A program made the position numbers and the translations under genes. DNA of 64,000 nucleotides, taken from Roseateles depolymerans (GTDB lineage Bacteria; Pseudomonadota; Gammaproteobacteria; Burkholderiales; Burkholderiaceae_C). The notes beneath the pieces are model-generated. The model was not told the DNA's origin. It ran no database searches and worked only from the letters and a program-made list of their open reading frames with translations. Position 1 is the first letter of the stretch. Each line of letters opens with the position of its first letter. Below, piece by piece: positions 32,544 to 49,907 of the stretch. Location of the stretch: positions 625,694-689,693 of the forward strand of contig NZ_QUMT01000002.1 of assembly GCF_003387155.1 (NCBI RefSeq), written 5' to 3'.

Positions 32544-33521
32544 TCACGCGCCGAAGGCGTGCGCTAGGCCCGCCACTTCCCGCTCAAAAATCATGCGCTC
32601 GCGCATCACCGCCTGCCGCGCGGGCAGGCTCAGGTCCAGATAGAACTCGTACTGCTGCATCAGCTGCCGGGCCCCGGCGAAGACCTGGTCCACCTGGTCC
32701 GGCTTGAAGTAGCACTCCGCCGGAAGCAGGTAGTCCCGGGCGGCGCCCACATCCAGCGCAAACACGCAGCAGTTGCGCGTCAGGGCCTCGCGGGCCAGCC
32801 GGTCCTTGCCGGGGAAAGTGCCCAGGTCGATGAACAGCCGGCTGCGGCCCAGCGCCTCATACACCTGCGCCCGGCTCATGCCGCGGATCAGATGCACCCG
32901 GCAGTCGTTCTCCCGCTCCAGCCGCGCGGCAATGGCGGCGACGTCATACAGCACCTTGTGATTGGCATTGATGGCGATGTCGGTCTTGGGCCACTGCTGC
33001 GCCGCATCGGCGCCCGGGGTGTAGTCCGACAGCGGCAGCGTCCGGTGGCAGCCCAGCGCTCGGATCACCTGATGCGCATAGCTGGACTGGTAGGTGTGCA
33101 GCACCCGTTCGGTCCGAAGGGCATTGAGGTTGACCTTCTGCACCGACAGATATTCAAACGCGTTGTCGATGCTCAGCCACCAGACCATGGGCGTGCAGGG
33201 CTGGAAATAGCGCAACCAGTGCACGTAGGTCTCGGCCAGCACCACGCAGGTGTCGGCATTCATCACGATCTGCTCGGCCAGCCGCACCTGGTACTTCTCG
33301 TAGTCCGCCACCGTGTTGGGCCGGGGCTGCAGGCGCAGCGCCGTCTCGGGGCCCAGGCCGTTGCCGCGATGCAGTTGGTCGATGGCGGCCAGATCGCTGG
33401 GCAGCACATACCAGACCCGTGCGTCATGGCCCTGCCGCAAAAGAGCGTCGGAGAGCTGATGCAGGGCCTCGGGCCCGCCGGTCTGCACGCCGTGGGGGAT
33501 CAGGATGATGATCTGTTTCAT
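32544..33521 (-). CDS. Glycosyltransferase (GT-B-like)
   Basis: This encodes a 325-residue cytosolic protein. The N-terminus IIILIPHGVQTGGPEALHQLSDALLRQGHDARVWYVLP has the glycine-rich loop and helix of GT-B glycosyltransferases that lack a clear Pfam match. The C-terminal half has IDLGTFPGKDRLAREALTRNCCVFALD, comparable to the donor-binding E-x7-E region of GT1/GT4 enzymes. Donor and acceptor are unknown. It is the last of three co-directional transferase-type genes downstream of the two giant repeat-protein genes, which suggests it modifies them or builds a cell-surface glycan. Confidence 0.65.
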   Translation of the reverse strand: MKQIIILIPHGVQTGGPEALHQLSDALLRQGHDARVWYVLPSDLAAIDQLHRGNGLGPETALRLQPRPNTVADYEKYQVRLAEQIVMNADTCVVLAETYVHWLRYFQPCTPMVWWLSIDNAFEYLSVQKVNLNALRTERVLHTYQSSYAHQVIRALGCHRTLPLSDYTPGADAAQQWPKTDIAINANHKVLYDVAAIAARLERENDCRVHLIRGMSRAQVYEALGRSRLFIDLGTFPGKDRLAREALTRNCCVFALDVGAARDYLLPAECYFKPDQVDQVFAGARQLMQQYEFYLDLSLPARQAVMRERMIFEREVAGLAHAFGA

Positions 33522-33575: not shown

Positions 33576-34466
33576 TCAGGCCTGCGGCGGCGTGGCGGCA
33601 GACGTCGCGGCGGTGGCCGCTGCGGCCACCGCGTCCGCGGCTTGCAAGGCCGCCAGCCGCTGCTGCAAGCGCTGCGCTGCGGCCGGAGACACCACCTGCA
33701 GGCCAGGCAGCAGATAGTTGCTGCGGCTCTTGATGATTCGGTCGGAGAGATGCTCCACCAGGAAGTCCGGACTCTCCCGATACACCGACGGCAGATGGAA
33801 GATGCCGTGGAAGCCGAAGGTCGGGAAGGGCACGGCCGGGAACTCCACCGAGAAGTGCTGGGCGATGGCCTTGGGGGCGAATCGGCAGCCCTGGCGCTCC
33901 AGCGTCTCGCGCATGCGGCGGCAGATGAAGAGGTCCTCCGCCTCGGTCGGATCGTCATAGTCCAACTGGGCCACGGCCTGCACCAGGCGCCGGGAGCGCC
34001 AGGAAAACCCGCCATTGCCCACCTCATGCCGGTCGTAGTTGGGCCACGGCGCGCCGATGTAGTCGTAATGCAGGAAATGCGGCGAGAACTGATCGGCATT
34101 GAGCACGAAGCCGTCGTACTGGATGACCAGCACGAAATCTGCGCTCAGATGCCGCGCCAGCTCCCGGGTGACCAGCAGGTTGTACTCGCTGATGGACCGC
34201 AGGGTCGGAATGCGGATCACCGGCAGGCCGGGCCACAGCTCGGGCTTGTCGGAATAGATCAGCACCTGGGAGAAGGGCAGCCCCTGGCGCTCCATCGACT
34301 GCATGCTGTGCAGCAGCGCCTGACGGGCCAGCTGATGCAGGTCGGTGTCGATGATCGCCACCGCCAGGCTGGGCCCCGCGGCGCGCGGCGGCGCCACGGA
34401 CGGATCGTTGGCGGCAGGGTCGGACGTTGCAGACGTGCCGGCGGCGCCGGAGGAGGTGGGGGTCAT
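33576..34466 (-). CDS. DUF5672-type glycosyltransferase-like protein
   Basis: This encodes a 296-residue protein. Core features are VLVIQYDGFVLN (a DxD-like region), YDYIGAPWPNYDRHEVGNGGFSWRSRRLV, and a later EDLFICRRMRETLE segment, all typical of DUF5672 proteins that occur in glycan loci and are thought to be GT-A-like transferases. The first 35 and last 25 residues are Ala/Ser/Thr/Pro-rich and look disordered. It sits between the two GT-B-type genes (11 bp after the upstream one), so it is probably cotranscribed. Activity is inferred from family and context only. Confidence 0.7.
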   Translation of the reverse strand: MTPTSSGAAGTSATSDPAANDPSVAPPRAAGPSLAVAIIDTDLHQLARQALLHSMQSMERQGLPFSQVLIYSDKPELWPGLPVIRIPTLRSISEYNLLVTRELARHLSADFVLVIQYDGFVLNADQFSPHFLHYDYIGAPWPNYDRHEVGNGGFSWRSRRLVQAVAQLDYDDPTEAEDLFICRRMRETLERQGCRFAPKAIAQHFSVEFPAVPFPTFGFHGIFHLPSVYRESPDFLVEHLSDRIIKSRSNYLLPGLQVVSPAAAQRLQQRLAALQAADAVAAAATAATSAATPPQA

Positions 34467-34477: not shown

Positions 34478-35635
34478 TCAGCAGAGGTCGAGCAGTTGGC
34501 GAGTCACCTGGGCCCAGGAAAAACGCTGGGCCAGCCGCTGGCGGGCGGCTTCCCGGCGTGCGGGCGGTGGCAGGCGTTTTTCAACGACCTGCAGCATGGA
34601 TTCGCGCAGGTCTTCCAGGTCCGGCACCACAAACGCACCGCCGACCGGTTGCGGCGCATCGGCCGGCGTGCCGGGGCGGGTGAACAGCCGGTGGCAGAGT
34701 TCGGGCGGGGTGAAGTCGTCGGTGGCGCCGCCGCCGCTGACGATCACATGGGTGCCGCAGCCCATGGCTTCGAGCACCGGCAAATTGAAGCCTTCGGCCC
34801 GGTAGGGCGAGACATAGGCGTCCGACAGCGCATACAGCGAGCGGATCTGCGGCAGGTTGAGACTGGTGGACAGCACCGCAATGCCGTCCCGCACCACGGG
34901 CAGGCCCAGTTGCGGCGCTCGGGCGGCCATTTCCGCGAACACGCGCTCCACCGAGATGCCGTAAAGGCCCTGATGGTCCTTGAGGATCAGCCGCACCGGC
35001 AGGCCGGACAGCCGCAGCTCCGCAAAGGCCAGCAGCAGCAGATCGATGCCCTTGTTCCAGGTGGCCACGCCGACATTGGTGAAGACGGTTTCCTCCGGCC
35101 GGATGTTCAGCGCGGCGCGGGCCTGCTGGCGCTGCTCCTCGGTCATCGGGAAGAAGGTGTCGGTCTTGTAGCCGTGGGGCACGACCTCCACCTTGTCCGG
35201 GTCGAACCCATACTCCACCAGCCGGGCCTTGGACCAGCGGGTGGGGGTGATGACCTGGTCCTCGCCCTGGGTGAAGGCGGAGGGCTGCAGCTCCGGCGGA
35301 TCAAAGCTCTTGCCGCTCAGGCCGAACTCGGTCACGACGAAGGTGAGGTGGCGCCGGGCCAGGGACGGATGGGTGAGCCGCACCGGCGAGGCAATGCGCA
35401 GGCAGGTGTCCATCACCCGCTCGCCGGGGTCCGGCAGGCCGTCGATGACGGCACGCTCCTCGGGCGAGAAGCCGGAGTCCAGCTTGCTGCGGTCCCAATG
35501 CGGCATGAAGAAGGGCGCGTCCCGGTGGAAGAGCTGGAAGCGCGGGTCCTTCACCATCTCCAGGATCTGGTTCTGGTTGACCATGGCGATGGAGTGATTC
35601 ACTCCCCGCCAGCCCTCGATGCACAGAGTTTTCAA
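34478..35635 (-). CDS. Glycosyltransferase family 4-like protein
   Basis: This encodes a protein of about 385 residues. VEVVPHGYKTDTFFP opens the C-terminal Rossmann domain, FTNVGVATWNKGIDLLLLAFAEL is the classic GT4 segment, and SPYRAEGFNLPVLEAMGCGTHVIVSGGG carries the E-x7-E donor-binding motif. TTG at 35635 is the preferred start because GGAAGGA lies just upstream; an ATG at 35680 would add 15 poorly fitting residues. It is the first transferase gene after the smaller giant repeat-protein gene, 242 bp downstream of it. Substrates are unknown. Confidence 0.8.
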   Translation of the reverse strand: MKTLCIEGWRGVNHSIAMVNQNQILEMVKDPRFQLFHRDAPFFMPHWDRSKLDSGFSPEERAVIDGLPDPGERVMDTCLRIASPVRLTHPSLARRHLTFVVTEFGLSGKSFDPPELQPSAFTQGEDQVITPTRWSKARLVEYGFDPDKVEVVPHGYKTDTFFPMTEEQRQQARAALNIRPEETVFTNVGVATWNKGIDLLLLAFAELRLSGLPVRLILKDHQGLYGISVERVFAEMAARAPQLGLPVVRDGIAVLSTSLNLPQIRSLYALSDAYVSPYRAEGFNLPVLEAMGCGTHVIVSGGGATDDFTPPELCHRLFTRPGTPADAPQPVGGAFVVPDLEDLRESMLQVVEKRLPPPARREAARQRLAQRFSWAQVTRQLLDLC

Positions 35636-35716
35636 CGCGACGTCCTTCCGGTTGGCCCCGGGCACCCGTGGACGGGCCACGATGGGGCAGCTTCAGGCCC
35701 ATTGTGTCGCGATGGT

Positions 35717-35877: not shown

Positions 35878-38800
35878 TCAGATCAGCGGCGTGGCGGTAT
35901 TGTCGTCGTCCGAATGGCGCCGCATCAGCGGCAGATGCGCCATGGGCGCATGGCCGGCGTCCGCGGAGGGGCTGACCGGGACCGCGGCGGACAGCAAGCC
36001 GCCCGCATCCTGCCCCGCGTGGCCGGGCGCCGCCAGCACATCCGACGCCTGGACGCTGGTGCCGCCCTTGGCGAACCAGACGTCCGCCATCTCATGCGTC
36101 ACCCCGTCGGCCGTCTTGTAGCCCGAGATCAGCGCCAGCCGGTTGCCGTTGTCCTGGGCCGAGCTGACCTGAGCATTCAGATCCAGCTCCACGATGCCCA
36201 GCTCCGCCAGCGTCTTGAGCTCGCCCGCGTCGGTCTTGCCGTCGCCATTGGCATCAGCCCAGATCCGCAGCTCGGAGAACCCGGCATCCGCCGCCGTCAG
36301 CTTGTGGTCGTGGTTGCTGTCCATGGCCATCATGGCCTGGTAGCCATTGGCCGCATGCTGCCCGTTGGCCAGCACCGTGCCGGAGCCGAACAGCTCCGCG
36401 CCGGAATTGATCACCCCGTCGCCATTGAGGTCCCGCGCCAGCAGGCCGTTGCCGCCGGCCATCCAGCCCCACTGCTGCTGATGCCCGGTGCCGTTCATGT
36501 CGAACATCACCCCATGCTCGGACGCCACGGTCGACAGACCCGTCCCATCCAGGTTGAGCATGATGGGCGTGGCCAGGAACAGCGCATCGAGCTGCTTGCC
36601 GGTCATCGCATGCAGCGCATCGGTGCTGAAGGCCAGCACCTGATCCATGTTCAGGGCCGCCAGGTCGCGGGTCTCCAGGCCGATGACGGCATCGCTGGTG
36701 ATGGCGTGGATCTGGTCCACCGTCAGGGCGCGGGCCTGGTCGCGGGTGAGGGCGGTCAGATCCTCGCTGGACATGACCGCAAAGCCGTCGGACGAGATCG
36801 CCGCAATCTGCAGGCTGGTCATGGCGGCGATGTCGCGGCTGTCCAGCGCCTGGATGGCGTCGGTGTTCAGCGCGGCGATCTGCTCGGTGTGCAGGGCGCG
36901 CAGCACCTGGGTGCTCAGCCCGTTGATCTGGTCCGACCCCAGGGCCGCGATCATGTCGGTGCCCAGCCCGTTCAGCATGCTGGAGCTGAAGCCACGCATG
37001 GCGGCGGAACTCAGCGCCGCGAAATCCTCGGTGGCGAATCCGCCCAGCTGGTTGAGCGTCAGCTCGGCCACCTGCGTGCTGGTCAGCAGGTGCATCTGGT
37101 CGGTGTTGAGCGCGGAAAAATCTCCGGCGTCCATCACCCGGATGGCCCGTCCCGGCAACATGGCGATGTCCTGCGGGTCCAGCGCGGCAATCTGGTCGCT
37201 GGTCCAGGCCAGCACCTGCACATTGGTCAGTGCGGCGACCTGGTGGGTGTCCAGCGCCGCGATCTGGTCGGTATGCATCGCGGCGGCCTGCTGGAAGGTC
37301 AGCGACGCCACCTGTGAGGTGTTCAAGGCCTGGATCTGGTCCAGCGTCAGCCAGCCGATCTGGTCGGTGGTCAGGGCCCGCAGCGAGGTCGTGTGCAACT
37401 GGGCCAGGTCCTGCGTCTCCAGCGCCGCCACCTGGCTGGCATCCAGGGCCGCCAGTTGCGACGAGCGCAGGGCCGCGAACTGCGCGGTGGTCAGCGCCTG
37501 CAGCACCTCACTGGGCATCGCGGCAATCTGCAGCGAGGTCAGCGCGGCGATCTGCTTGGCCGAAAAGGTCGCCATCTGCGCGCCGTCCAGCGACGCGAAC
37601 TGGTCGCTGCCCAGCCCCAGCAAGGCGGTGCTGGAAATCTTGGACAACTGCCCCGGCGAGAGGTGGTCCAGTTGGTCCACCGTCATGCCCATCAGCTGTT
37701 TCGAGGTGAGCGACGCCAATTGCGCATCGGTCAGGCTGGCGACGCTGTCGCCGCTCAAGGCCGCAATCTGGGCCGAGTTCCAACCCGCCAGGGCGCGGGT
37801 GCTGAGGGCGGCCACGTCGGCCAGCTCCAGGTTGGCGATCTGGTCGGTGGTCAGCGCAGCGATCTGCCGCGAAGACAGCACCGCGTACTGCGCCGTGTTC
37901 ATCGCGTTCAGATCGCCCTGGGACCAAGCCGCGAGCTGGGCGGTGGTCAAGGCGGCGATCTGGTTGGTGCGCATCGCATCGATCTGCGAGTCCACCAGGG
38001 CATTGAGCTGGGTGGTGCTCAGCGCTTGCACCGCCGTCACGCTCAGGCCGATCACGCCCTGGCTGGAGAGCGCATCGATCTGGTCGGGCGTCATCGCCGC
38101 AACCTGGCTGGTGCTGAGCTGCGCCGTCTGGCTGCTGCCGAAGGCGCCAAACTGCTCCCGGGTCATCTGCCCGATCTGGGTGGCCCCCAGCACCGTCAGG
38201 TAGGCCGGCTTGATGGCGGCCAGCATCTCCGGCGCCAACTGCCCGATTTCATTGCTGGAAATGGCAGCGATCTGGAACGACGTCAGCGCCGCAAAATGCT
38301 GGGTGCCCAGTGCATTGAACTGCTCATGGTCCAGCTCCCGGACCTGGGCGGTGCTCAGGGCGACGAGCTGGCTGGTGCGCAGCGAGGTGAGGGCGCTGGC
38401 GCCCAGGGCATCGAACTGGTCCGATGTCAGGCCCTTGATGGCCAGCGTGTTGATGGCGGCCAGGGCATCGGTGCTCAAAGCCGTGATCTGGTCCACCCGC
38501 AGCGCGGCGATCTGCCCGGAATTAAGCACCTGCGACTGCGCGGTGGTGATGCCGCCCACCAGCGACACATCCAGCGCGCTGATCTGCGCCGTGCTGAGCG
38601 ACCGGATCACCGTGCCGGACAAGGCCCCAAAGTCCTCCGACTGGAGCAGCGACACCTGTTCGGTGGTCAGGCCGCGGAACTGCTGGGAGCTGAATGCGGA
38701 GAACTGCCCCGTGGTGAGGCTGTTGAGGTCGTCCGGCGTCAAGGCGGACAACTGTGCCGTGGTCAGCGCCCGCACCTGGGCCGAGGTCAGGGCCACCAGT

Positions 38801-40302
38801 TGATCGGTGGTGAGCAGATCGAGCTGATCGGTGGTCAACGTGGCCACCACCCGGGTGGACAGTGCCTGGATGGCACCGGTGCTCAGCGACATCAACTGCT
38901 CGGACGTGAGGTCGCTCAGTTGACGGGTGCCGATGGCACCGGCCTGGCTGCTGCTCAGGGCCGCCAGTTGACCGGGGTCCAGCGCCGCCAGTTGCGCGCC
39001 GCTCAGCCCCTTCAGCGCGGTGCTGCTCAGGGCGGCCAGGTCCTCGGTGGTCAGCGAATGCAGCTGGCTGCCGGACAGGGCGGCCAGTTGGCTGGACGTC
39101 AGGGCATGGATCTGGCTGGTGGTCAGGGCCGCCAGATCGTCGGTGTCGAAGGCGGCCAGTTGCCGCGTGGTGATGGACTGGATCTGCGCGGTCTTGAGCG
39201 CCGCCAGTTGCTCCGGATCCATCGCCGCCATCACGTCCGGCCGCAGTCCAGCCAGGGCGGCACTGCTCAGCGACCGCAATTCATCGGTGCTGAAGGAGGG
39301 CAGTTGCTCCGAATGCAGGCCTTTGAGCTGCAGCGAGGTGAAGCTGGCCACCTGCTGGGCCGTCAGACCATTGAGCTGGTCGGAGCTCAGCGCCGACAGC
39401 TGGGCCGAGTCCAGGGCCCGCAGACCCTTGGTGCCGATGACGCCCAGGTCCTCGGCCTCCAGCGCCGCCACCTGGGCGGTGTTGAGCGCCTTGATCTGCA
39501 GGGTGCCGACCGCGCTCATCTGCTCGGTGGTCAGGGCGGCCAGGTTGTCCGTGGTCAGGGTGCGGAACTGCTGGCTCGTCAGGGCGCTGATCTGGCGGGA
39601 GTCCAGGCTGACCAGCGCATCGGAGCTCAGATGCGAGACAGCGGTGGTCGTCAGATAGCGCACCGCCTGGGTGTTCAGCGCATGCAGCGCATCACTGGTG
39701 AGACTGTTGAGCTGCTCGGCCGTCAGGCCCCGGCTCTGGTTGCCGCTGAGGGTGTTGATCTGGGCGGTGTCCAGGGCCTGGAGCTGGTCGGTGCTCAGCG
39801 AGCCGAGCTGGCCGGTGCTCAGCGCCTTGACCTGCTGGGCGGTCAGCGCCGCTACCTCGTCGGTGGCCAGCAGCGCGATCTGGGCGGTGTTGAGGCCCCG
39901 CACCTGCACCGAGGTCAGCGCCTGAATCTGGGTGCTGTCCAGGGCGCTGAACTGCACGCTGTCCAGCCGCCGCAGGCGGTCGATGGTCAGCGCGGGCACC
40001 TGGTCGGTGGTCAGCGCATGCACCTGGTCCGAGGTCAGGGCCTGCACCGTCAGCGTGCTGAGCGTACGGATGGCGGCGGTGCTGATCGCCTGCACATCGG
40101 TCAGCTCCATGGCGGACAGTTGCCCGGAGGCCAGCGACGTCAGCTGGCGGGCGGTCAGCGCATGCACCTGGTAGGTCGTCAACCCGACCACCTGGGCGGC
40201 GGTCAGCAGTGCCCATTCCTCACCGGTCAGCGTGTTGAGCTGGGCAGTGGTCAGGGCCCCGATCTGTTCCGGGGTCAGCGCTGAGACGTCGAAGGTGGCC
40301 AT
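35878..40302 (-). CDS. Giant octapeptide-repeat protein 2 with calcium-loop C-terminal region
   Basis: This encodes a 1474-residue protein. From about residue 7 to 1238 it is a run of some 150 octapeptides of pattern [AS]-L-[TS]-[TS]-x-Q-[IVL]-x. The last 236 residues are a different region starting DALFLATPIMLNLDGTG. That region holds Asp/Asn-rich loops of EF-hand/dockerin type (DLNGDGVINSGAE, DSNHDHKLTAAD, DANGDGKTDAGE) and ends in TATPLI. There is no Sec signal; a C-terminal type I secretion signal is inferred. Its DNA keeps the 408-bp (17-octad) register of its larger neighbour, but individual octads have diverged more. The ATG has only a weak ribosome site. No enzymatic motif is visible. 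Confidence 0.85.
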   Translation of the reverse strand: MATFDVSALTPEQIGALTTAQLNTLTGEEWALLTAAQVVGLTTYQVHALTARQLTSLASGQLSAMELTDVQAISTAAIRTLSTLTVQALTSDQVHALTTDQVPALTIDRLRRLDSVQFSALDSTQIQALTSVQVRGLNTAQIALLATDEVAALTAQQVKALSTGQLGSLSTDQLQALDTAQINTLSGNQSRGLTAEQLNSLTSDALHALNTQAVRYLTTTAVSHLSSDALVSLDSRQISALTSQQFRTLTTDNLAALTTEQMSAVGTLQIKALNTAQVAALEAEDLGVIGTKGLRALDSAQLSALSSDQLNGLTAQQVASFTSLQLKGLHSEQLPSFSTDELRSLSSAALAGLRPDVMAAMDPEQLAALKTAQIQSITTRQLAAFDTDDLAALTTSQIHALTSSQLAALSGSQLHSLTTEDLAALSSTALKGLSGAQLAALDPGQLAALSSSQAGAIGTRQLSDLTSEQLMSLSTGAIQALSTRVVATLTTDQLDLLTTDQLVALTSAQVRALTTAQLSALTPDDLNSLTTGQFSAFSSQQFRGLTTEQVSLLQSEDFGALSGTVIRSLSTAQISALDVSLVGGITTAQSQVLNSGQIAALRVDQITALSTDALAAINTLAIKGLTSDQFDALGASALTSLRTSQLVALSTAQVRELDHEQFNALGTQHFAALTSFQIAAISSNEIGQLAPEMLAAIKPAYLTVLGATQIGQMTREQFGAFGSSQTAQLSTSQVAAMTPDQIDALSSQGVIGLSVTAVQALSTTQLNALVDSQIDAMRTNQIAALTTAQLAAWSQGDLNAMNTAQYAVLSSRQIAALTTDQIANLELADVAALSTRALAGWNSAQIAALSGDSVASLTDAQLASLTSKQLMGMTVDQLDHLSPGQLSKISSTALLGLGSDQFASLDGAQMATFSAKQIAALTSLQIAAMPSEVLQALTTAQFAALRSSQLAALDASQVAALETQDLAQLHTTSLRALTTDQIGWLTLDQIQALNTSQVASLTFQQAAAMHTDQIAALDTHQVAALTNVQVLAWTSDQIAALDPQDIAMLPGRAIRVMDAGDFSALNTDQMHLLTSTQVAELTLNQLGGFATEDFAALSSAAMRGFSSSMLNGLGTDMIAALGSDQINGLSTQVLRALHTEQIAALNTDAIQALDSRDIAAMTSLQIAAISSDGFAVMSSEDLTALTRDQARALTVDQIHAITSDAVIGLETRDLAALNMDQVLAFSTDALHAMTGKQLDALFLATPIMLNLDGTGLSTVASEHGVMFDMNGTGHQQQWGWMAGGNGLLARDLNGDGVINSGAELFGSGTVLANGQHAANGYQAMMAMDSNHDHKLTAADAGFSELRIWADANGDGKTDAGELKTLAELGIVELDLNAQVSSAQDNGNRLALISGYKTADGVTHEMADVWFAKGGTSVQASDVLAAPGHAGQDAGGLLSAAVPVSPSADAGHAPMAHLPLMRRHSDDDNTATPLI

Positions 40303-40448: not shown

Positions 40449-43400
40449 TTAGATCAGCGGTGTGTTGCCGTTCTCCTCGTCGAGCTTGGGCTTGGACAGC
40501 GCCGCCAGCAGGTCATGGTGGACCGTGGTGCCGGTGGTGGCCGTGGTCACCGAGGTGGTGGCCGGCGTGCCGGTGGCGGAGGTCGCCGAGCTGCCCGGAT
40601 CGCCCAGCAGGTTGGCGGTCGGTGCGGCCAGCAGGTCGCCCAGGGCCGGCGCATGCGCCGTGTGGGCATTCTGCGGGCTGCCGTCCTTGGCCAGCCAGAC
40701 GTCGGTCATCTCGTGGGTTGTGCCATCCGCCTTGGTGTAGCTGGAGACCAGGCCCATCACGTTGCCGTTCTGCACATCCGAGCCCTTGGTGGCGTTCAGG
40801 TTCAGGTCGGCGATACCCAGATCGGCCAGGGTCTTGAGCTCACCCGCGTCGGTCTTGCCGTCGTGGTTCGCATCCACCCACACCTGCAGCTTGCTGAAGT
40901 TGCCGTCCAGGGCGTTGATGTGGCCGTCGTGGTTGCTGTCGAGTGTGCCCAGGGCCGTGAAGCCGTCCGCACCCTTCTGACCGTTCACCACCGTGCCCGC
41001 GCCGAACAGCTCGCCGCCGTTGTTGATCTTCCCGTCGCCGTTCAGATCCATCACCAGCAGGCCGTCGTTGCCACCCACCCAGCCCCACTTGTCGTTATGA
41101 CCGGAGTTGTTCAGGTCGAAGTGGACGCCCTGGCTGGCCGACAGCGTCTGGATGCCGTTGCCGTCCAGGTCCAGCATGATCGGCGTGGACAGGAAGAGCG
41201 CGTTGCGCTGTTCATTCGACCAGCCGGCCTGTTGCTCGGATGTGATGACCAGCGACTGCGCCATGCTCATCGAGGCCAGATCCTGCGTGTCCCAGCCGAT
41301 GAACTGATCCGAGCTCATCGCCGCGATCTGGTCGGTGGACAGCCCCTGCACCTGCACCGAGGTTAGCGCACGGATGTCTTCGGAGCCGAAGGCCACGATC
41401 TGGTCGGTGGTCAGCGCATGGATCTGCGCCGAGGTCATCGTCGCGAAATGCTGGCTGGTCAGGGCCGTGATGTCGTCGGTCGTCAGGGCCGCGATCTGGT
41501 CGGTGCCCAGGGCGCGGATCTGTGCGGTCGAGAACTCATGGATCTGCTCGGTCGTCAGCGCCGCCACCTGGTCGGTGCTGAAGGCATGGACGGCCGCCGT
41601 GCTCAGCGCATGGATGCCGGCCGTGGTGATCGAGCCGATGTCGGCCGTCTCGATGCCCACGATCTGCGCGCTGCTCACCGCGCCCCACTGCGAGGCCGTC
41701 AGGGCATGGATCTGATCCGAGCTGAAGGCTTCGAAGTCCGCGGAACCGAAGGCCACCATGTTGGCGCTGCTGATGGCCGCCAGGTCGCCGGTGTCCAGCG
41801 CCGCCACCTGGTCGGTGGTGAAGGCATGCAGTTGCGCCGAGTTGAACGCCACCACCTGGGCCGAGGTCAGGGCCGCGACGTCATCCGTCGCCAGCTGGCT
41901 CACCTGCAGGGTGGAGAAGGCCGCCACCTGCTGGGTGCTCAGCGCGGCGATCTGGTTGGAGTCCAGGGCCTCGAGCTGGGCGCTGTCCAGCGAGCGGATG
42001 GCCAGCGTGCTCAGGGCGCGCAGGTCGGCCGTCTCGAAGGCCGCCATCTGGTCGGTGGTCAGGCCATCGACCTGGGCGGAGCTCAGCGCTGCCGCCTGGA
42101 TCGAGCTCAGGGCCACGATCGCTTCGGTGCTCAGCGCGCCGATCTGGGCCGAGCTCAGCGCCTGCAGCTGGGTGCTGGTCAGCGCCGCCACGTCGTCGCT
42201 GGTCATCGTCGAGACCTGCGCGGTGGTCAGGGCCTGCAGCTGGCCGTTGGTCAGGGCGCGGATCTGGCCGCTGGTCAGCGCGTTCAGGTCGTCGCTGGTC
42301 AGGTTGGCGATCTGGGCCGTGGTCAGGGAATTAACCTGGCTGGTCGTCAGGGCCGCGATCTGGTCGCTGTCCAGGGCCTCGAGCTGAGCGCTGCTCAGGG
42401 CACGCAGGGCCACGGTCGAGAGCGACTTCAGGTCACCGCTTTCGATCACCGCCATCTGCTCGGTCGTCAGACCCTGCACCTGGGCGGAGGTCAGTGCCGC
42501 CACCTGGGTGGAGGTCAGCGCCACCACCGCGTCGGTGGCGAGCGCCCCCACCTGGGCCGAGTTCAGCGCCTGGATCTGGCTGGAGGCCAGGGCCGCGACG
42601 TCGTCGCTGGTCATGGTGGAGACCTGCGTCGTCGTCAGCGACGCCACCTGGGCCGTGGTCAGCGCACGGATCTGGGCGCTGGTCAGGGCGTTCAGGTCGT
42701 CGCTGGCCAGGTTGCTCACCTGACCGGTCGTCAGCGCGGCCACCTGGGCGGTGGTCAGCGCCTGGACCTGGTCGGTGCCCAGGGCATTGACCTGGTCGCT
42801 GGTCAGGCTGCGCAGGGCCGAGGTCGTCAGGGCCTTGAGGTCGCCGGTTTCGATGGCGGCGATCTGGTCGGTCGTCAGGCCCGCCACCTGCTTGGTGCCG
42901 AGGGCGGCCACCTGCAGCGAGCTCAGCGCTTCGATTGCATCGGTCGCCAGCGCACCCACCTGGGCCGAGCTCAGCGCGGCCACCTGGTTGGTCGCCAGGG
43001 CGGCCACGTCGGCCGTCTCCATGGTGTTGATCTGGCCGGTCGTCAGCGCGGCCACCTGGGCCGTGCTCAGCGCCTTGATCTGAGCGCTGGTCAGGGCGTT
43101 CAGGTCATCGCTGGTCAGGTTGCTGATCTGGCCGGTGGTCAGCGCGGCGACCTGGGCGGTGCTCAGGGCGGCGATCTGGTCGCTGTCCAGGGCTTCCAGC
43201 TCGGCGCTGCTCAGCGCGGCCACCTGGGCGGTGGTCAGCGCACGCAGCTGGCCGGTGGTCAAGGCCGCGAAGTCGTCGGTCGCCAGCTGGCTGACCTGGC
43301 CGGTCGTCAGCGAAGCCACCTGCGTCGTCGTCAGCGCCTGCACCTGATCCGAGCTCAGGGCCTGCAGCTGGTCGCTGGTCAGGGCGCGCAGGGCGACGGT

Positions 43401-46400
43401 GTTCAGGGACTTCAGGTCCGCCGATTCGATGGCGGCCATCTGGTCGGTCGTCAGACCGGCCACCTGGCGGCTCGTCAGCGCGGCGACCTGGCCCGAGGTC
43501 AGGGCCACGATGGAATCCGTCGCCAGCGCACCGACCTGGGCCGAGCTCAGCGCGGCAATCTGGTTGGTGGCCAGGGCCTGGACATCGTCGCTGGTCATGG
43601 TGGAGACCTGCGCCGTCGTCAGCGCCGCGACCTGCTGGGTGCTCAGGGCCTTGATCTGGGCGCTGGTCAGCGCATTCAGGTCGTCGCTGGAGAGGGTGCT
43701 CACCTGGCCGGTGGTCAGGGCCACCACCTGCTGGGTGCTCAGCGCCGCCACCTGGTCGGAGCCCAGGGCATCCAGCTGGGTGGAGGTGAGCGACTGCAGG
43801 GTGTTGGTCGTCAGCGCCTTGATGTCACCGGTCTCGATGGCCGCGATCTGGTCGGTCGTCAGGCCGGCGGCCTGGCGGCTGGTCAGCGCGGCGATCTGGC
43901 CGGAGCTCAGGGCCACCACGGCGTCGGTGCTCAGCGCTCCCACCTGGGCCGAGCTCAGCGCGGCCACCTGGTTGGAGGTCAGGGCGGCGACGTCGTCGCT
44001 GGTCATGTTGGAGACCTGACCCGTCGTCAGCGCGGCCACCTGCTGGGTGCTCAGGGCCTTGATCTGGGCGCTGGTCAGGGCATTCAGGTCGTCGCTGGCC
44101 AGGCTGCTGATCTGGCCGGTGCTCAGGGCCGCCACCTGGGCGGTCGTCAGCGCGGCGATCTGGTCGGAGCCCAGGGCGTCGATCTGGTCAGTGGTCAGCG
44201 AGCGCAGGGCGGTCGTGGACAGGGCCTTGAGGTCGCCCGTCTCGATGGCGGCCATCTGGTCGGTCGTCAGGCCGGCGACCTGCTTGCTGGTCATCGCGGC
44301 GACCTGGCTGGACGTCAGTGCCTCGACCGCATCGGTCGTGAGCGCACCCACCTGGCCGGAGCTCAGGGCGGCGACCTGGTTGGTCGTCAGGGCGGCGACG
44401 TCGTCGCTGGTCATGGTCGAGACCTGGCCGGTGGTCAGGGCGGCCACTTGCTGGGTGCTCAGGGCCTTGATCTGGGCGCTGGTCAGGGCGTTCAGGTCAT
44501 CGCTGGAGAGCGTGCTCACCTGGGTGGTCGTCAGCGCGGCCACCTGGGCGGTGGTCAGCGCCTGCACCTGGTCGGAGCCCAGGGCATCCAGCTGGGTGCT
44601 GTCCAGGGCGCGCAGGGCGGTGCTGGTCAGGGCCTTGAGGTCGCCGGTTTCGAGGGCGGCGATCTGGTCGGTCGTCAGGCCGGCCACCTGCTTGGTGGTC
44701 AGCGCCGCCACCTGGACGGAGCTCAGGGCCACGATGGCTTCGGTGCTCAGCGCACCCACCTGGGCGGAGCTCAGCGCAGCCACCTGGTTGGTCGCCAGGG
44801 CGGCCACATCGGCCGATTCCATGGTGTTGATCTGACCGGTCGTCAGCGCGGCCACCTGGGCGGTGGTCAGCGCCTTGATCTGGCTGCTGGTCAGCGCGTT
44901 GAGGTCGTCGCTGGCCAGGGTGGAGATCTGGGCCGTCGTCAGGGCGGCGACCTGGTTGGTGGCCAGGGCCGCGATCTGGTCGCTGCCCAGGGCATCCAGC
45001 TCGGCGCTGCTCAGCGCGGCCACCTGGGCGGTGGTCAGGGCGCGCAGCTGGCCGGTGGTCAGGGCGGCGAAGTCGTCGGTGGCCAGCTGGCTGACCTGGG
45101 TGGTCGTCAGCGAGGCGACTTGGGCGGTCGTCAGGGCCTGCACCTGGTCGGTGCCCAGGGCCTGAAGCTGATCGCTGGTCAGGGCGCGCAGGGCCACCGT
45201 GTTCAGGGCTCGCAGGTCGCCGGTTTCAAGGGCGGCGATCTGGTCGGTCGTCAGGCCAGCCACCTGGCGGCTGGTCAGGGCGCCGACTTGCGCGGAGGTC
45301 AGCGCTTCGATGGCGTCCGTGGCCAGCGCACCCACCTGGGCCGAGCTCAGCGCGGCGATCTGGTTGGTGGCCAGGGCCTGCACGTCGTCGCTGGTCATGG
45401 TGCTGATCTGACCGGTGGTCAGGGCGGCCACCTGCTGAGTGGACAGCGCACGGATCTGGCCGCTGGTCAGCGCGTTCAGGTCGTCGCTGGTCAGGTTGCT
45501 CACCTGGCCGGTGGTCAGGGCCGCCACCTGCTGGGTGCTCAGCGCCGCGATCTGGTCGGAGTTCATCGCCTCCAGCTGCGCGGAGGTCAGCGACGCCAGC
45601 GTGTTGGTGGTGATGGCCTTCACATCGGCCGATTCCAGCGCGGCGATCTGGTCCGTGCCCAGGCCCGCAGCCTGCTTCGAGCTCAGAGCCGCCACTTGCG
45701 TGGAGCTCAGGGCCACGATGGCCTCGGTGCTCAGCGCGCCCACCTGGGCGGAGCTCAGCGCGGCCACCTGGTTCGTTGCCAGGGCGGAGACGTCGGCCGA
45801 CTCCATGGTGTTGACCTGGCCGGTCGTCAGTGCTGCCACCTGGGCCGTGCCCAGCGCGCGGACCTGGCCGCTGGTCAGGGCATTGAGGTCGTCACTGGTC
45901 AGGCTGGAGACCTGGCCGGTGCTCAGCGAGGCCACCTGGGTGGTGGTCAGCGCCTGGACCTGGTCGGACCCCAACGCATTGAGCTGGTCGGAGGTCAGCG
46001 AGCGCAGGGCCGCCGTGTTCAGGGCCTTGAGGTCGCCGGTTTCGATGGCGGCCATCTGGTCGGTCGTCAGGCCCGCCACCTGCTTGGTGGTCAGCGAGCC
46101 GATCTGGGTCGAGCCCAGGGCCACGATGGCATCGGTGCTCAGGGCGCCGACCTGGGCCGAGCCCAGCGCCTGCAGTTGGTTGGTCGTCAGGGCCGCGACG
46201 TCGTCGCTGGTCATGGTGCTGACCTGGCCGGTCGTCAGGGCGGCCACCTGCGCGGTGCTCAGGGCCTTGATCTGGGCGCTGGTCAGGGCGTTCAGGTCAT
46301 CGCTGGACAGCGTGGAGATCTGGCCGGTGCTCAGCGAGGCCACCTGGGTGGTGCTCAGCGCGGCGATCTGGTCGGAGCCCAGCGCATCGAGCTGGCTGCT

Positions 46401-49400
46401 GTCCAGGGCGCGCAGGGCGGTGGTGGACAGGGCCTTGATGTCGCCGGTTTCGATGGCGGCGATCTGGTCGGTCGTCAGGCCCAGGGCCTGCTTGCTGGTC
46501 AGGGCGCCGACCTGGGTGGAGGTCAGGGCCGCGACGTTGTCGGTGGACAGGGCGCCGATCTGGGTGGAGCTGAACGCGCCGACCTGGCCGCTGGTCAGGG
46601 CCTGCACATCGGCGCTTTCCATGCCGCGGACCTGGTCGGTCGTCAGCGCGGCGATCTGGGCGGTACCCAGGGCACGGATCTGGGCGGTGCCTAGCGCATT
46701 GAGGTCTTCACTGCCCAGGGCCACCACTTGCTGGGTGCTCAGGGCGGCGACTTGCGCGGTCGTGAGCGCCGCCACCTGGTCGGAGGTGAGGGCGGCCACC
46801 TGGTCGGTGGTCAGCGCACGCAGGGCCTGCGTGGACAGGGCCTTCACATCGACGGTTTCGATGGCGCCGACCTGGTCGGTCGTCAGGCCACCGACCTGCT
46901 TGGTGCTGATCGGCGCAATCTGCTGAGAGCTCAGTGCAGCGATGTTGTCGGTGGACAGGGCACCCACCTGAGCCGAGCTCAGCGCGGCAATCTGGTTGGT
47001 GCTCAGGGCCTGCACGTCCTCGCTGGTCATGGTGCTGACCTGCGCGGTGGTGAGCGCGGCGACCTGCGCGGTGGACAGCGAACGGATCTGGCCGCTGGTC
47101 AGGGCGTTCAGGTCGTCGCTGGAGAGGTTGCTGACCTGGGTCGTGCTCAGCGCGGCCACCTGGGCGGTGTTCAGCGCGGCGACCTGGTCGGAGCTCAGGG
47201 CGTCCAGTTGGCTGCTGTCCAGCGAGCGGATCACCGCCGTGGTCAGCGCCTTCAGGTCACCGGTTTCGATGGCGGCGATCTGGTCGGTGCCGAGGCCCGC
47301 GGCCTGCTTGGTGCCGAGCGCAGCGACCTGCGAGGAGGACAGCGCAGCGATGTTGTCGGTGGCCAGCGCAGCAATCTGTGCGGAGCCCAGGGCCTGCACC
47401 TGCGCGGTGGTCAGCGCCTGCACATCCTCGCTGGTCATGTTGTGGATCTGGTCCGTCGTCAGCGCGGCGATCTGGGCGGTGCCCAGGGCGCGGATCTGCG
47501 CGCTGCCCAGGGCATTCAGGTCGTCGCTGGACATGGCGGCCACCTGGCCGGTGGTCAGCGCGGCGACCTGCGCGGTCGTCAGGGCGGCCACCTGGTCGGA
47601 GCCCAGGGCATCGAACTGGTCGGTGGTCAGGGAACGGATGGCGCCGGTGGACAGGGCACGCAGGTCGGCCGTTTCAATGGCGGCCACCTGGTCCGTGCTC
47701 AGTCCGGAGATCTGCTTGGTGCTCAGCGCAGCGACCTGGGTGGAGCTCAGGGCGGCGATGTTCTCCGTCGCCAGCGCACCCATCTGGGCGGAGCTCAGCG
47801 CGGCGACCTGGTTGGTGGTCAGCGCCTGCACATCGGCGCTTTCCATGCCTTGGACCTGGTCGGTCGTCAGGGCGGCGACTTGTGCAGTGCCCAGCGCACG
47901 GATCTGGGCGCTGCCCAGGGCGTTCAGGTCATCGCTGGACATGGCGGCCACCTGGCCGGTGGTCAGCGCGGCGACCTGGCCGGTGCTCAGGGCCTGGACC
48001 TGGTCGGAGCCCAGGGCATTGAACTGGTCGGTGGTCAGCGAGCGGATGGCCGCGGTGGACATCGCGCGCAGGTCACCGGTCTCGATGGCAGCGACCTGGT
48101 CGGTCGTCAGGCCGGAAATCTGCTTGGTGCTCAGGGTGGCGACCTGGGCCGAGGTCAGGGCGGCGACGTTGTCCGTCGTCAGCGCGGCCATCTGGGCCGA
48201 GCTCAGCGCCTGCACCTGACCGGTGCTCAGGGCCTGCAGGTCGGCGCTTTCCATGCCGTGGACCTGGTCGGTCGTCAGCGCGGCGACCTGGGCGGTGCTC
48301 AGGGCGCGGATCTGGCCGGTGCCCAGGGCATTGAGGTCATCAGTGGCCATGGCGGCCACCTGGCCGGTCGTCAGCGCGGCGACCTGCTGGGTGGTCAGCG
48401 CACCGACCTGGTCGGAGGTCAGGGCGTCGAACTGGGCCGTGGTCAGGGAACGCAGGGCGTTGGTCGACATCGCGCGCAGGTCGCCGGACTCGATGGCGGC
48501 GACCTGGTCGGTGGACAGGCCCAGCAGCTGCTTGCTGGTCAACGAGGCGACCTGACCCGAGGTCAGCGCCACGATGGCCTCGGTGGACAGCGCGGCGATC
48601 TGAGCCGAGCTGAGCGCACTGATCTGGCCGGTGGTCAGCGCCTGCACATCGGCGCTTTCCATGCCCTGCACCTGGTCGGTGGACAGGGCGGCGATCTGGG
48701 CGGTGCCCAGGGCGCGGATCTGGCTGCTGTCCAGCGCATTGAGCTCATCGGTGGAGAGCACCTGCACCTGGGCGGTGGTCAGGGAGCCGACCTGGCTGGA
48801 GCTCATGGCGGCGATCTGGTCCGAGCCCAGGGCCTGGACCTGGTCGGTGCCCAGCGACCGCAGCGTGGCGGTGGAGATGGCCTTGATGTCGTCCGTGCCG
48901 ATGGCCGCGATCTGGTCGGTCGTCAGGCCCTTGGCCTGGGTGGAGGTGAGGGCGCCGATCTGGCCGGAGCTCATCGCCTCGATGGAATCGGAGGTCAGGG
49001 CGCCGAGCTGGCTGGAGCTCAGGGCGCGCACCTGCGCGGTCGACAACGCCTGCACATCGTCGCTGGCCAGGCCGCCGATCTGGTCGGTGGACAGGGCAGC
49101 GATCTGCTGCGTGGTGATGGAACGGATCTGGTTGGTGTCCAGGGCCGAGATGTCGTCGCTGCTGAGCTGGCGGATCTGGCTGGTGGTCAGCGCGGCGATC
49201 TGCTGGGTGGTCAGTGCGGCGACCTGGCTGGAGCTCAGCGCGGCCACCTGGTCGGTGCCCAGCGCATGGACGGCGGCGGTGCTCAGGGCCTTGACGGCGT
49301 CGGAGGTCAGCGCGGCGGTCTGGTCGGAATTCAGGGCAGCGGCCTGGGTGCTGGTGATGGCAGCGGCCTGCTGGGTGCCGAGGGCGGCGACGCCGTCGGT

Positions 49401-49907
49401 GGCAATGGCAGCGACCTGCGCGGAGCTCAGGGCACGGATCTGGTCCGTCTTCAGGGCCTGCAGGTCGTCGGAGGTCAGGGTGCTGATCAGCGAGGTGGAG
49501 ATGGCGGCCACCTGCTGGCTGCTCAGCGAGCGAATCTGGTCGGAGCCCAGCGCATTCAGGTCATCGGACTCGAGGTTGCGCACCTGCTGCGTGGTCAGCG
49601 AGCCCACCTGGCGGGTGGTCATCGCGCCGAACTGGTCCGACCCCAGGGCATTGATCTGCTCGGTGGTCAGGCTGCGGATCGCGGCGGTGCTGAGCACCTG
49701 CAGGTCCTGCGACTCGATGGCGGCGATATTCGTGGTCGTGAAAAACGACACGGCCTTGGTGCCCAGCGAGGCAAATTGCTCGGTGGTCAGGGCCTGGAAC
49801 TGTTCGGTGGTGAACGCCGCCCAGTCCTCGCTGGTCAGACGCGCAAGCGTCGTGGACGTCAGCGTCTGGATCTGGTCGGTGGACAGGTTGGTAATGAGCG
49901 ATGCCAT
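40449..49907 (-). CDS. Giant octapeptide-repeat protein 1 with calcium-loop C-terminal region
   Basis: This encodes a 3152-residue protein, the largest in the window. Residues about 5-2900 are some 360 octapeptides such as ALTTDQIA, ALSSAQVG and GLTTDQMA. They form a 17-octad, 136-residue unit: a marker octad (S-D-D-L) recurs at exactly 408-bp steps. Within each unit the Gln becomes Asp at octads 1, 5 and 12. T/S-x-x-Q resembles a helix capping box, so a solenoid of short helices is a reasonable guess. The last 251 residues have three calcium-type loops (DLNGDGKINNGGE, DSNHDGHINALD, DANHDGKTDAGE) and end NTPLI. No Sec signal. GGAG precedes the ATG by 7 bp. A secreted adhesin or surface-layer role is inferred. 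Confidence 0.9.
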   Translation of the reverse strand: MASLITNLSTDQIQTLTSTTLARLTSEDWAAFTTEQFQALTTEQFASLGTKAVSFFTTTNIAAIESQDLQVLSTAAIRSLTTEQINALGSDQFGAMTTRQVGSLTTQQVRNLESDDLNALGSDQIRSLSSQQVAAISTSLISTLTSDDLQALKTDQIRALSSAQVAAIATDGVAALGTQQAAAITSTQAAALNSDQTAALTSDAVKALSTAAVHALGTDQVAALSSSQVAALTTQQIAALTTSQIRQLSSDDISALDTNQIRSITTQQIAALSTDQIGGLASDDVQALSTAQVRALSSSQLGALTSDSIEAMSSGQIGALTSTQAKGLTTDQIAAIGTDDIKAISTATLRSLGTDQVQALGSDQIAAMSSSQVGSLTTAQVQVLSTDELNALDSSQIRALGTAQIAALSTDQVQGMESADVQALTTGQISALSSAQIAALSTEAIVALTSGQVASLTSKQLLGLSTDQVAAIESGDLRAMSTNALRSLTTAQFDALTSDQVGALTTQQVAALTTGQVAAMATDDLNALGTGQIRALSTAQVAALTTDQVHGMESADLQALSTGQVQALSSAQMAALTTDNVAALTSAQVATLSTKQISGLTTDQVAAIETGDLRAMSTAAIRSLTTDQFNALGSDQVQALSTGQVAALTTGQVAAMSSDDLNALGSAQIRALGTAQVAALTTDQVQGMESADVQALTTNQVAALSSAQMGALATENIAALSSTQVAALSTKQISGLSTDQVAAIETADLRALSTGAIRSLTTDQFDALGSDQVAALTTAQVAALTTGQVAAMSSDDLNALGSAQIRALGTAQIAALTTDQIHNMTSEDVQALTTAQVQALGSAQIAALATDNIAALSSSQVAALGTKQAAGLGTDQIAAIETGDLKALTTAVIRSLDSSQLDALSSDQVAALNTAQVAALSTTQVSNLSSDDLNALTSGQIRSLSTAQVAALTTAQVSTMTSEDVQALSTNQIAALSSAQVGALSTDNIAALSSQQIAPISTKQVGGLTTDQVGAIETVDVKALSTQALRALTTDQVAALTSDQVAALTTAQVAALSTQQVVALGSEDLNALGTAQIRALGTAQIAALTTDQVRGMESADVQALTSGQVGAFSSTQIGALSTDNVAALTSTQVGALTSKQALGLTTDQIAAIETGDIKALSTTALRALDSSQLDALGSDQIAALSTTQVASLSTGQISTLSSDDLNALTSAQIKALSTAQVAALTTGQVSTMTSDDVAALTTNQLQALGSAQVGALSTDAIVALGSTQIGSLTTKQVAGLTTDQMAAIETGDLKALNTAALRSLTSDQLNALGSDQVQALTTTQVASLSTGQVSSLTSDDLNALTSGQVRALGTAQVAALTTGQVNTMESADVSALATNQVAALSSAQVGALSTEAIVALSSTQVAALSSKQAAGLGTDQIAALESADVKAITTNTLASLTSAQLEAMNSDQIAALSTQQVAALTTGQVSNLTSDDLNALTSGQIRALSTQQVAALTTGQISTMTSDDVQALATNQIAALSSAQVGALATDAIEALTSAQVGALTSRQVAGLTTDQIAALETGDLRALNTVALRALTSDQLQALGTDQVQALTTAQVASLTTTQVSQLATDDFAALTTGQLRALTTAQVAALSSAELDALGSDQIAALATNQVAALTTAQISTLASDDLNALTSSQIKALTTAQVAALTTGQINTMESADVAALATNQVAALSSAQVGALSTEAIVALSSVQVAALTTKQVAGLTTDQIAALETGDLKALTSTALRALDSTQLDALGSDQVQALTTAQVAALTTTQVSTLSSDDLNALTSAQIKALSTQQVAALTTGQVSTMTSDDVAALTTNQVAALSSGQVGALTTDAVEALTSSQVAAMTSKQVAGLTTDQMAAIETGDLKALSTTALRSLTTDQIDALGSDQIAALTTAQVAALSTGQISSLASDDLNALTSAQIKALSTQQVAALTTGQVSNMTSDDVAALTSNQVAALSSAQVGALSTDAVVALSSGQIAALTSRQAAGLTTDQIAAIETGDIKALTTNTLQSLTSTQLDALGSDQVAALSTQQVVALTTGQVSTLSSDDLNALTSAQIKALSTQQVAALTTAQVSTMTSDDVQALATNQIAALSSAQVGALATDSIVALTSGQVAALTSRQVAGLTTDQMAAIESADLKSLNTVALRALTSDQLQALSSDQVQALTTTQVASLTTGQVSQLATDDFAALTTGQLRALTTAQVAALSSAELEALDSDQIAALSTAQVAALTTGQISNLTSDDLNALTSAQIKALSTAQVAALTTGQINTMETADVAALATNQVAALSSAQVGALATDAIEALSSLQVAALGTKQVAGLTTDQIAAIETGDLKALTTSALRSLTSDQVNALGTDQVQALTTAQVAALTTGQVSNLASDDLNALTSAQIRALTTAQVASLTTTQVSTMTSDDVAALASSQIQALNSAQVGALATDAVVALTSTQVAALTSAQVQGLTTEQMAVIESGDLKSLSTVALRALSSAQLEALDSDQIAALTTSQVNSLTTAQIANLTSDDLNALTSGQIRALTNGQLQALTTAQVSTMTSDDVAALTSTQLQALSSAQIGALSTEAIVALSSIQAAALSSAQVDGLTTDQMAAFETADLRALSTLAIRSLDSAQLEALDSNQIAALSTQQVAAFSTLQVSQLATDDVAALTSAQVVAFNSAQLHAFTTDQVAALDTGDLAAISSANMVAFGSADFEAFSSDQIHALTASQWGAVSSAQIVGIETADIGSITTAGIHALSTAAVHAFSTDQVAALTTEQIHEFSTAQIRALGTDQIAALTTDDITALTSQHFATMTSAQIHALTTDQIVAFGSEDIRALTSVQVQGLSTDQIAAMSSDQFIGWDTQDLASMSMAQSLVITSEQQAGWSNEQRNALFLSTPIMLDLDGNGIQTLSASQGVHFDLNNSGHNDKWGWVGGNDGLLVMDLNGDGKINNGGELFGAGTVVNGQKGADGFTALGTLDSNHDGHINALDGNFSKLQVWVDANHDGKTDAGELKTLADLGIADLNLNATKGSDVQNGNVMGLVSSYTKADGTTHEMTDVWLAKDGSPQNAHTAHAPALGDLLAAPTANLLGDPGSSATSATGTPATTSVTTATTGTTVHHDLLAALSKPKLDEENGNTPLI
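41473..49570. repeat. 408-bp higher-order tandem repeat within giant gene 1
   Basis: The marker TCGTCGCTGG (or a close variant) starts at 41473, 41881, 42289, 42697, 43105, 43681, 44089, 44497, 44905, 45481, 45889, 46297, 46705, 47113, 47521, 47929, 48337, 48745, 49153 and 49561. Seventeen of the 19 intervals are exactly 408 bp; two are 576 bp (408 plus 168, that is seven extra octads). The base period is 24 bp. Confidence 0.92.

Follow-up and report, generated by a model that had tools for sequence, protein, structure and literature searches.

Octads of a giant ALTTAQ protein of Roseateles depolymerans may form a solenoid rod in which 17 short helices make five turns

The ALTTAQ repeat is a recognised Pfam family (PF20080) with a model of 38 positions, the entry for which, as displayed, gives neither a function nor a 17-repeat unit nor a 3.4-repeat charge period. 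Other described systems are the self-processing module of FrpC, which has four EF-hand-like loops and stays unfolded at low cytosolic calcium (PMC7078468); mesothelin, whose 24 short helices wind into a right-handed spiral of nine layers (PMC10035497); and FlmG of Caulobacter, a cytoplasmic protein O-glycosyltransferase (PMC7591256). In a stretch of 64,000 nucleotides from Roseateles depolymerans (assembly GCF_003387155.1, contig NZ_QUMT01000002.1, forward-strand positions 625,694 to 689,693; hereafter the window), the ALTTAQ protein P0001 consists largely of octads in units of 17, and its net charge recurs about every 3.4 octads; from this we infer a solenoid of about 3.4 helices per turn, in which the unit would span five turns. 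P0001 clearly belongs to PF20080, and its C-terminal domain is homologous to the FrpC module without having its cleavage site; neither the five-turn rule nor a link of family GT41 glycosyltransferases and type I secretion to ALTTAQ proteins was found in print among open-licence papers. The host genome has 5.66 Mb, and its named near relatives are Roseateles, Mitsuaria, Paucibacter and metagenome-assembled genomes named Rubrivivax or Burkholderiaceae. P0001 and its paralogue P0002 comprise the following features.

40449..49907, minus strand: P0001, ALTTAQ-repeat protein, an open reading frame (ORF) of 3152 amino acids (aa); PF20080 at 2540.9 bits in 108 stretches
41199..49886, minus strand: 362 ungapped octads in 17-octad units, P0001 residues 8-2903, from the repeat parse and autocorrelation
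44847..45014, minus strand: extra block of 7 octads (octads 203-209), which would make about two turns; the phase path jumps from 15 to 9
43047..43214, minus strand: second extra block of 7 octads (octads 278-284); the phase path again jumps from 15 to 9
47847..48662, minus strand: two 17-octad units modelled with AlphaFold2, 34 helices
40680..41183, minus strand: calcium domain resembling the FrpC self-processing module, with Thr-Pro replacing Asp-Pro; match to 6sjw, E 7.1e-35
40452..40679, minus strand: C-terminal tail of P0001, rich in T, S and A, with an acidic end and TPLI; a possible secretion signal, judging by its sequence
35878..40302, minus strand: P0002, a 1474-aa paralogue with 155 repeats and a like C-terminal domain; PF20080 at 678.8 bits

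The P0001 ORF lies exactly at 40449-49907, as an original prediction made from the letters alone had it, and the strand, which that prediction left unstated, is minus. Long open frames are also present on the plus strand over P0001 in the ORF list. The minus-strand frame has third codon positions with the composition typical of coding sequence (gc3-gc2 0.42), and within octads 51-187 the identity between P0001 and its orthologue L014 is 0.847, 0.881 and 0.667 at codon positions 1, 2 and 3, respectively; because of this composition and the lower identity at the third position than at the first two, we take the minus strand to be coding. Both proteins pass the curated PF20080 cut-off of 26.4 bits, the octads of P0001 lying far above it. 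Side matches of the repeats to other Pfam models (CAAP1, HTH_25, Sigma70_r4_2, LRR_EndoS and others) were taken as repeat cross-matches.

We found that residues 8-2903 of P0001 form 362 consecutive octads of the pattern L-T-T-x-Q-V-x-A with zero residue slip, in agreement with the octad architecture originally proposed. Self-identity is maximal at a lag of 136 residues (0.586), as a 17-octad period demands, against 0.33-0.40 at the multiples of eight from 8 to 128 and 0.344 at lag 144. Within octads 5-350, the range covered by the phase statistics, octad position 5 is acidic at phases 0 (19/19), 7 (18/20) and 13 (22/22), or 59 of 61 cases, and is neither Gln nor an acid at phases 3 (18/19) and 8 (20/20), or 38 of 39 cases. 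By their spacing, phases 13, 0 and 7 are the octads 1, 5 and 12 that were predicted to carry Asp, and phases 3 and 8 are the octads 8 and 13 predicted to carry Ala or Thr, so that both assignments stand. The placement of the Asp octads is not random, with 50 pairs of [ST]xD[LFVI] octads exactly 17 apart, whereas 2000 random placements gave 10 such pairs on average and never more than 18. The counts given for the marker SDDL were wrong, however, since the exact string occurs 15 times rather than 20, with nine rather than 17 successive intervals of 17 octads. The exact 17-octad register, also part of the original prediction, holds over most of P0001 but is shifted by the two 7-octad blocks, at octads 203 and 278, and is lost near the ends, where phase-path analysis places breaks at octads 5 and 351. 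Both extra blocks fall at the same place within the 17-octad unit.

The net charge of P0001, taken by octad index, has a dominant spectral peak at 3.405 repeats with a power of 97.5 (95% level of shuffles, 8.3), and that of P0002 peaks at about 3.38 repeats (3.382-3.385; 27.05 aa) with a power of 40.7 (shuffles, 7.9). Since the charge period is close to 3.40 and 17/5 is 3.40, 3.4 helices may be read as one superhelical turn, a value drawn from sequence periodicity and not from coordinates, and at 3.4 helices per turn 17 helices would make five turns. A tandem array shows only harmonics of its own unit, so that unit and charge period are not independent there, and the weight for 3.4 lies with the weakly tandem members and with the winning of the same harmonic across different units. 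The clearest independent evidence is P0002, which combines little visible tandem repetition (identity of 0.285 at a lag of 17 octads against a median of 0.25) with a strong period.

Charge periods were compared in 66 proteins, 59 with at least 30 octads and seven fetched after the idea had formed (limit 20). A significant period was present in 53 of the 66, and in 50 of these 53 it lay within 3.30-3.50 repeats. Roseateles, Paucibacter and near kin contributed 24 proteins, all within this band; among the 42 proteins from outside this group, 29 had a significant period, 26 of them in the band. Four of the seven proteins fetched later were significant, at 27.05, 27.25, 27.9 and 28.2 aa (3.395-3.415 repeats), but three of these four belong to genomes (G557, G471 and G416) that were represented in the set before by a different locus. 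Eight superperiods, hand-picked as one per lineage (136 aa in P0001, 217 in Rugamonas, 134 in Pseudoduganella, and 192, 271, 139, 489 and 216 elsewhere), are best divided in common by 27.15 aa when divisors from 15 to 60 are scanned, near the charge period of P0002, with a mean cosine of 0.93 at 27.1 and a chance of about 1e-5.

Counted in residues, the lineages of L122/L148 and L143 appeared to be off, at about 28 aa, and L144, with a superrepeat of 128 aa, seemed to be a counterexample. Counting repeats restores the 17-repeat unit in all of these lineages, and residue-based counting was dropped; the switch was made after the deviation had been seen, and both counts are given here. The superrepeat of the L144 ORF (minus-strand offset 8734) consists of 17 shortened repeats with a mean of 7.57 aa and has no charge period. 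The 17-repeat unit thus recurs at mean lengths of 8.00 (P0001), 7.90 (L025), 8.20 (L122), 8.28 (L143) and 7.57 (L144) residues per repeat, which argues against slippage of a fixed length of DNA. The number 17 is not universal, a question raised by the original prediction: it recurs in several lineages, and relatives also have units of 24, 27, 34 and 61 repeats, all near whole numbers of 3.4-repeat turns.

The repeat number of P0001 is conserved, with 362 octads in all nine complete orthologues outside Paucibacter. The Paucibacter orthologue has 427 octads, with inserts of 58 (3 x 17 + 7) and 7 octads relative to P0001, and P0001 itself contains the two additions of 7. At 3.4 helices per turn, 7, 10, 17, 24, 27, 34, 44 and 61 helices would all return near whole turns, and these are the recurring unit, lag and insert sizes. 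In six of eight comparisons a unit of P0001 was best matched by its own counterpart in L014, so that the units are of long standing and most of them have been conserved one by one. The constancy of 362 octads, these counterpart matches and the recurrence of 17-repeat units elsewhere support the earlier proposal of a structural superunit over slippage. L113, which also has 362 octads, was rejected as an orthologue, its identity to P0001 being 32% and the octad number a coincidence. In the host's order, 12 of 300 genomes encode proteins of the PF20080 type (E up to 1e-7), as do 12 of 48 genomes from another class (E up to 1e-8).

AlphaFold2, supplied with two units (272 aa) and a 33-row alignment of the window and relatives, predicted 34 helices for 34 octads, one per octad, with a predicted local distance difference test score (pLDDT) of 96.4 and a predicted TM-score (pTM) of 0.87. 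Each helix has five or six residues and usually spans octad positions 3-8 or 3-7, leaving positions 1-2 non-helical; in such a model T or S at position 2 would act as the N-cap and Q or D at position 5 as N3, resembling a capping box. The short stacked helices and N-capping box proposed earlier are thus supported by the two-unit prediction. Charges of P0001 are almost exclusively at octad positions 2, 4, 5 and 7 (324 of 327), and among models built on ideal backbones the 12 with the best packing have positions 2, 4 and 7 facing outward. Given 3.4 repeats per turn, the acids and bases of P0001 would lie on roughly opposite faces. In 20 of 22 proteins chosen out of the 66, with the turn fitted within 3.3-3.5, the mean directions of bases and acids were more than 120 degrees apart. 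A scan of ideal backbones left about 2.2-4 helices per turn sterically allowed, so that 3.4 is possible; deriving 3.4 from stereochemistry was dropped, as the scan does not favour it over other values.

Residues 2909-3076 of P0001 are homologous to the FrpC self-processing module (PDB 6sjw), and P0002, by its alike sequence, carries the same kind of C-terminal domain. In both proteins the scissile Asp-Pro of FrpC is replaced by Thr-Pro, so that they differ from FrpC at the cleavage site. Thr or Ser precedes Pro in all 21 ALTTAQ-linked modules caught by a sequence pattern, and the 18 other FrpC-type modules caught by the same pattern have Asp in seven cases and Ser or Thr in 11; because of these 11, loss of the Asp is not special to the ALTTAQ family. 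The domain may therefore be a cap that folds on calcium without self-cleavage. Among the Pfam matches listed for P0001 and P0002, to E 1, there were none to families of glycine-rich calcium nonapeptide repeats of the repeats-in-toxin (RTX) type. The acidic tail with its PLI or PLL end is just suggestive of a type I secretion signal. A third FrpC-module protein, a 1177-aa ORF, is encoded elsewhere in the host genome, away from the P0001 locus (G000:C2:1122719-1123240).

Downstream of P0002, three genes follow in a row.

34478..35680, minus strand: GT4-type glycosyltransferase, directly downstream of P0002; PF00534, E 5.7e-13
33576..34466, minus strand: DUF5672 protein, next after GT4; PF18922, E 6.6e-21
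32544..33521, minus strand: conserved protein after DUF5672, no Pfam match; nine orthologues at 80-97%

The GT4 and the conserved protein were each found in nine close-relative loci, lying about 4 kb further on in L014 and L022. A PDB sequence search with the products of 32544-33521 and 33576-34466 gave nothing useful. The ALTTAQ gene of G416 is followed by one for a GT41-GT4 fusion, the GT4 half of which is 40% identical to the GT4 of the window; in G560, the ALTTAQ gene is followed by a gene for a GT41 enzyme with tetratricopeptide repeats (TPR) and then by those for glucose-1-phosphate cytidylyltransferase and CDP-glucose 4,6-dehydratase.

Linkage to GT41 and HlyD genes was searched for in 20 family-bearing genomes, 10 from Burkholderiales and 10 others. 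An ALTTAQ gene had a GT41 gene no more than 20 kb away in at least 10 of the 20, including at least six of the 10 Burkholderiales (G348, G560, G557, G416, G471 and Paucibacter; 0.27 expected from random placement, relatedness ignored) as well as G045, G041, G077 and G105 of another class, where the linkage in the near kin G045, G041 and G077 is probably one event. HlyD occurred within 16 kb in nine of the 20 (G348, G560, G557, G471, Paucibacter, G045, G041, G077 and Rugamonas). Eleven loci were inspected closely, being those in which GT41 or HlyD had already been seen nearby and not a sample. In Rugamonas the ABC and HlyD genes come directly after the ALTTAQ gene, and in G348 GT41, ABC and HlyD genes adjoin it. 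In Paucibacter, GT41 and HlyD lie 19 kb and 15 kb from the ALTTAQ pair, with a glucose-1-phosphate cytidylyltransferase gene between; judged on GT41 and HlyD, the gene order there looks the same as that of a GT41-ABC-HlyD-outer-membrane-protein (OEP) operon of the host at G000:C2:136030-143396 (L136 8031-15397), which has no large gene adjoining it in the 19 kb inspected. GT41 and HlyD are no more than about 10 kb apart in the host genome, G348, Paucibacter, G471, G045, G041 and G077.

In the subset of window proteins that was scanned, no type I secretion system (T1SS) families were detected. The HlyB model TIGR01846 gave 47 matches in the host genome, none above its cut-off, and served only to place candidates. 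Several further observations were made at ALTTAQ loci and in the window. In a genome of another class, a 3767-aa ORF with several GT41 matches (L141 5251-16554) and an ALTTAQ gene are about 2.5 kb apart. The ALTTAQ gene of Pseudoduganella (L025 10019-18211) has as neighbours a FliR-like export gene and further genes that look flagellar, and one in G471 (L124 129-1532) is ahead of genes that, judged by eye, are flagellin-like. In the window, 27396-28697 encodes an N-acyl amino acid synthase of the FeeM type, whose neighbours are a trypsin-like protease and a large protein with TPR.

Taken together, the GT41/GT4 and HlyD/ABC neighbourhoods and the likeness to FlmG lead us to infer an exported, O-glycosylated surface rod; here the gene arrangement is observed, and export, glycosylation, pairing with the substrate and adhesion are predicted. 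FlmG is of the TPR-GT41 kind. P0001 and P0002 would be very long alpha-solenoid rods with one short helix per octad, as predicted for P0001, coiling at about 3.4 helices per turn so that after 17 helices, or five turns, the same face comes back in register, with an acidic stripe along one side and a basic one roughly on the other. Thr and Ser of the octads would be O-glycosylated in the cytoplasm by the GT41 of the operon, the downstream GT4, or both, and the protein would be exported by a type I system, perhaps that of the distant GT41-ABC-HlyD-OEP operon, whereupon extracellular calcium would make the calcium domain fold, self-cleavage being absent because the scissile Asp is replaced. The outcome may be a long glycosylated surface fibre of about 106 turns that serves adhesion or matrix building; its length would perhaps be 100 nm, as the usual helix packing is 9-10 A per turn. 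We consider it probable that rod, 3.4 helices per turn, calcium cap, type I export and glycosylated fibre hold jointly. More tentatively, and with slightly more doubt than confidence, the ALTTAQ proteins at large may be a new class of type I-secreted, O-glycosylated fibres of about 100 nm that grow in whole-turn helix counts and keep their stripes straight.

Several results weigh against this account, beginning with its geometry. No significant charge period was found in 13 of the 66 proteins, and L111, L113 and L123 have other periods (4.795, 2.395 and 2.115). Among the members with 24-repeat units (L111, L112, L113, L118 and L130), only L130 is significant in the band when counted by repeats, a weak spot that the model leaves unexplained. 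The best-packed 5% of the ideal-backbone models have 2.2-2.9 helices per turn, with a median of 2.46, and all family members share ancestry, so that the lineages are not fully independent. The failure of most 24-repeat members and the common ancestry within PF20080 would suit an origin in which the 17-octad unit is the residue of old 408-bp tandem duplications and the 3.4 period is inherited without geometric meaning, and block duplication did occur, the units within octads 51-187 of P0001 being 62-83% identical. However, the charge period stays near 3.4 across lineages with units as different as 17, 27 and 34 repeats, the 17-repeat unit is found at 7.57 to 8.28 residues per repeat, and P0002 has a strong period of 3.385 with little block identity, and we therefore regard such an origin as distinctly unlikely. 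That P0001 is a passive low-complexity expansion with no folded product is scarcely credible: its sequence repeats itself strongly, and long open frames are present on the opposite strand too, but its orthologues keep 362 octads, with identity to L014 higher at codon positions 1-2 than 3, and the two-unit model reaches a pLDDT of 96.

Export and glycosylation of the rod have their own points on the negative side. Among the matches listed, 10 of the 20 genomes (the host genome G000, G384, G580, G581, G065, G117, G129, G089, G181 and G085) show no GT41 closer than 20 kb to an ALTTAQ gene, and HlyD is not within 16 kb in 11 of the 20. The host GT41-ABC-HlyD-OEP operon is 518 kb from the P0001 locus, and a close homologue of its ABC gene occurs in 59 of the 300 genomes of the order, only four of which are among the 12 with ALTTAQ proteins; this co-occurrence (59/300 and 12/300, four common) does not discriminate and was dropped as support. 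In Paucibacter L020 no homologue of GT4 or of the 32544-33521 protein was found within 5.5 kb downstream, the AlphaFold2 model of the latter has a pLDDT of 48, too low for a fold, and no known type I secretion signal was identified in P0001. The rod might accordingly be unglycosylated, its charged stripes serving calcium binding or self-association and the glycosyltransferases an envelope polysaccharide. Acids are numerous (246), GT4 and CDP-glucose genes could make polysaccharide, and in half of the genomes no GT41 is nearby among the matches listed; yet FlmG is a cytoplasmic protein O-glycosyltransferase (PMC7591256), and GT41 and HlyD lie together in seven genomes, including that of the host, so that this alternative appears unlikely, though it deserves consideration. 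An intracellular scaffold or ligand-binding ARM-type solenoid is improbable. It would fit the weak fold matches, which are mostly to ARM proteins and mesothelin, the absence of a signal peptide to the eye in P0001 and the lack of T1SS families among the window proteins scanned, but the C-terminal domain belongs to the FrpC type, which is secreted and which low cytosolic calcium keeps unfolded (PMC7078468), and T1SS genes adjoin ALTTAQ genes in relatives.

If the five-turn reading is correct, the superrepeat length would be set by the pitch of the solenoid, selection keeping the number of helices rather than that of residues, and the rule would predict which insert sizes are allowed and where charge and sugar are placed. 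It would also supply a reason for 17, which the original prediction lacked. A function, that of an exported glycosylated fibre, is proposed for a Pfam repeat whose displayed entry names none, together with a partnership of GT41 enzyme and type I secretion on which no paper was found among those of open licence. Literature on HeliScrew, ALTTAQ or octad solenoid rods was likewise not evident in that set, where the papers on glycosyltransferases included some on HMW1C and OGT.

As regards fold, neither Foldseek nor VIA-align revealed a solved structure that is clearly of the octad-rod kind, mesothelin and ARM proteins being distant. Foldseek gave a weak match to mesothelin (E 1.1e-4, TMq 0.32), with TM values of just 0.18-0.36 against the P0001 model for mesothelin chains with E below 0.001, and VIA-align gave a best Z of 9.7 (7qlr), with ARM proteins at about 6-7.4 and a phage receptor-binding protein also matched. 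The predicted rod would have in common with mesothelin and the ARM-HEAT superhelices a right-handed spiral of short helices, but sequence kinship was not seen, and in the P0001 model each helix corresponds to one octad. The solved chain closest to the octads by sequence is HeliScrew4 (PDB 9zem; E 2.4e-17; 120 aa), with octads like LTPEQIAAL; in contrast to P0001 it is short and, from its name and regularity, apparently designed, and it was compared by its sequence record only. HeliScrew4 was not among the fold matches listed from structures up to April 2026, which carries no weight either way, and the ALTTAQ rods would be a natural counterpart to this chain. The likeness to FrpC (PDB 6sjw and 6sjx) lies in the C-terminal domain of 168 residues, in which four EF-hand-like calcium loops are readable by eye in P0001. 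The likeness to FlmG-type systems lies in a presumed protein-modifying GT41 gene beside a presumed substrate gene in relatives; whereas FlmG modifies flagellins, in the P0001 family the presumed substrate would be a giant rod of octads, partnered by a type I secretion operon.

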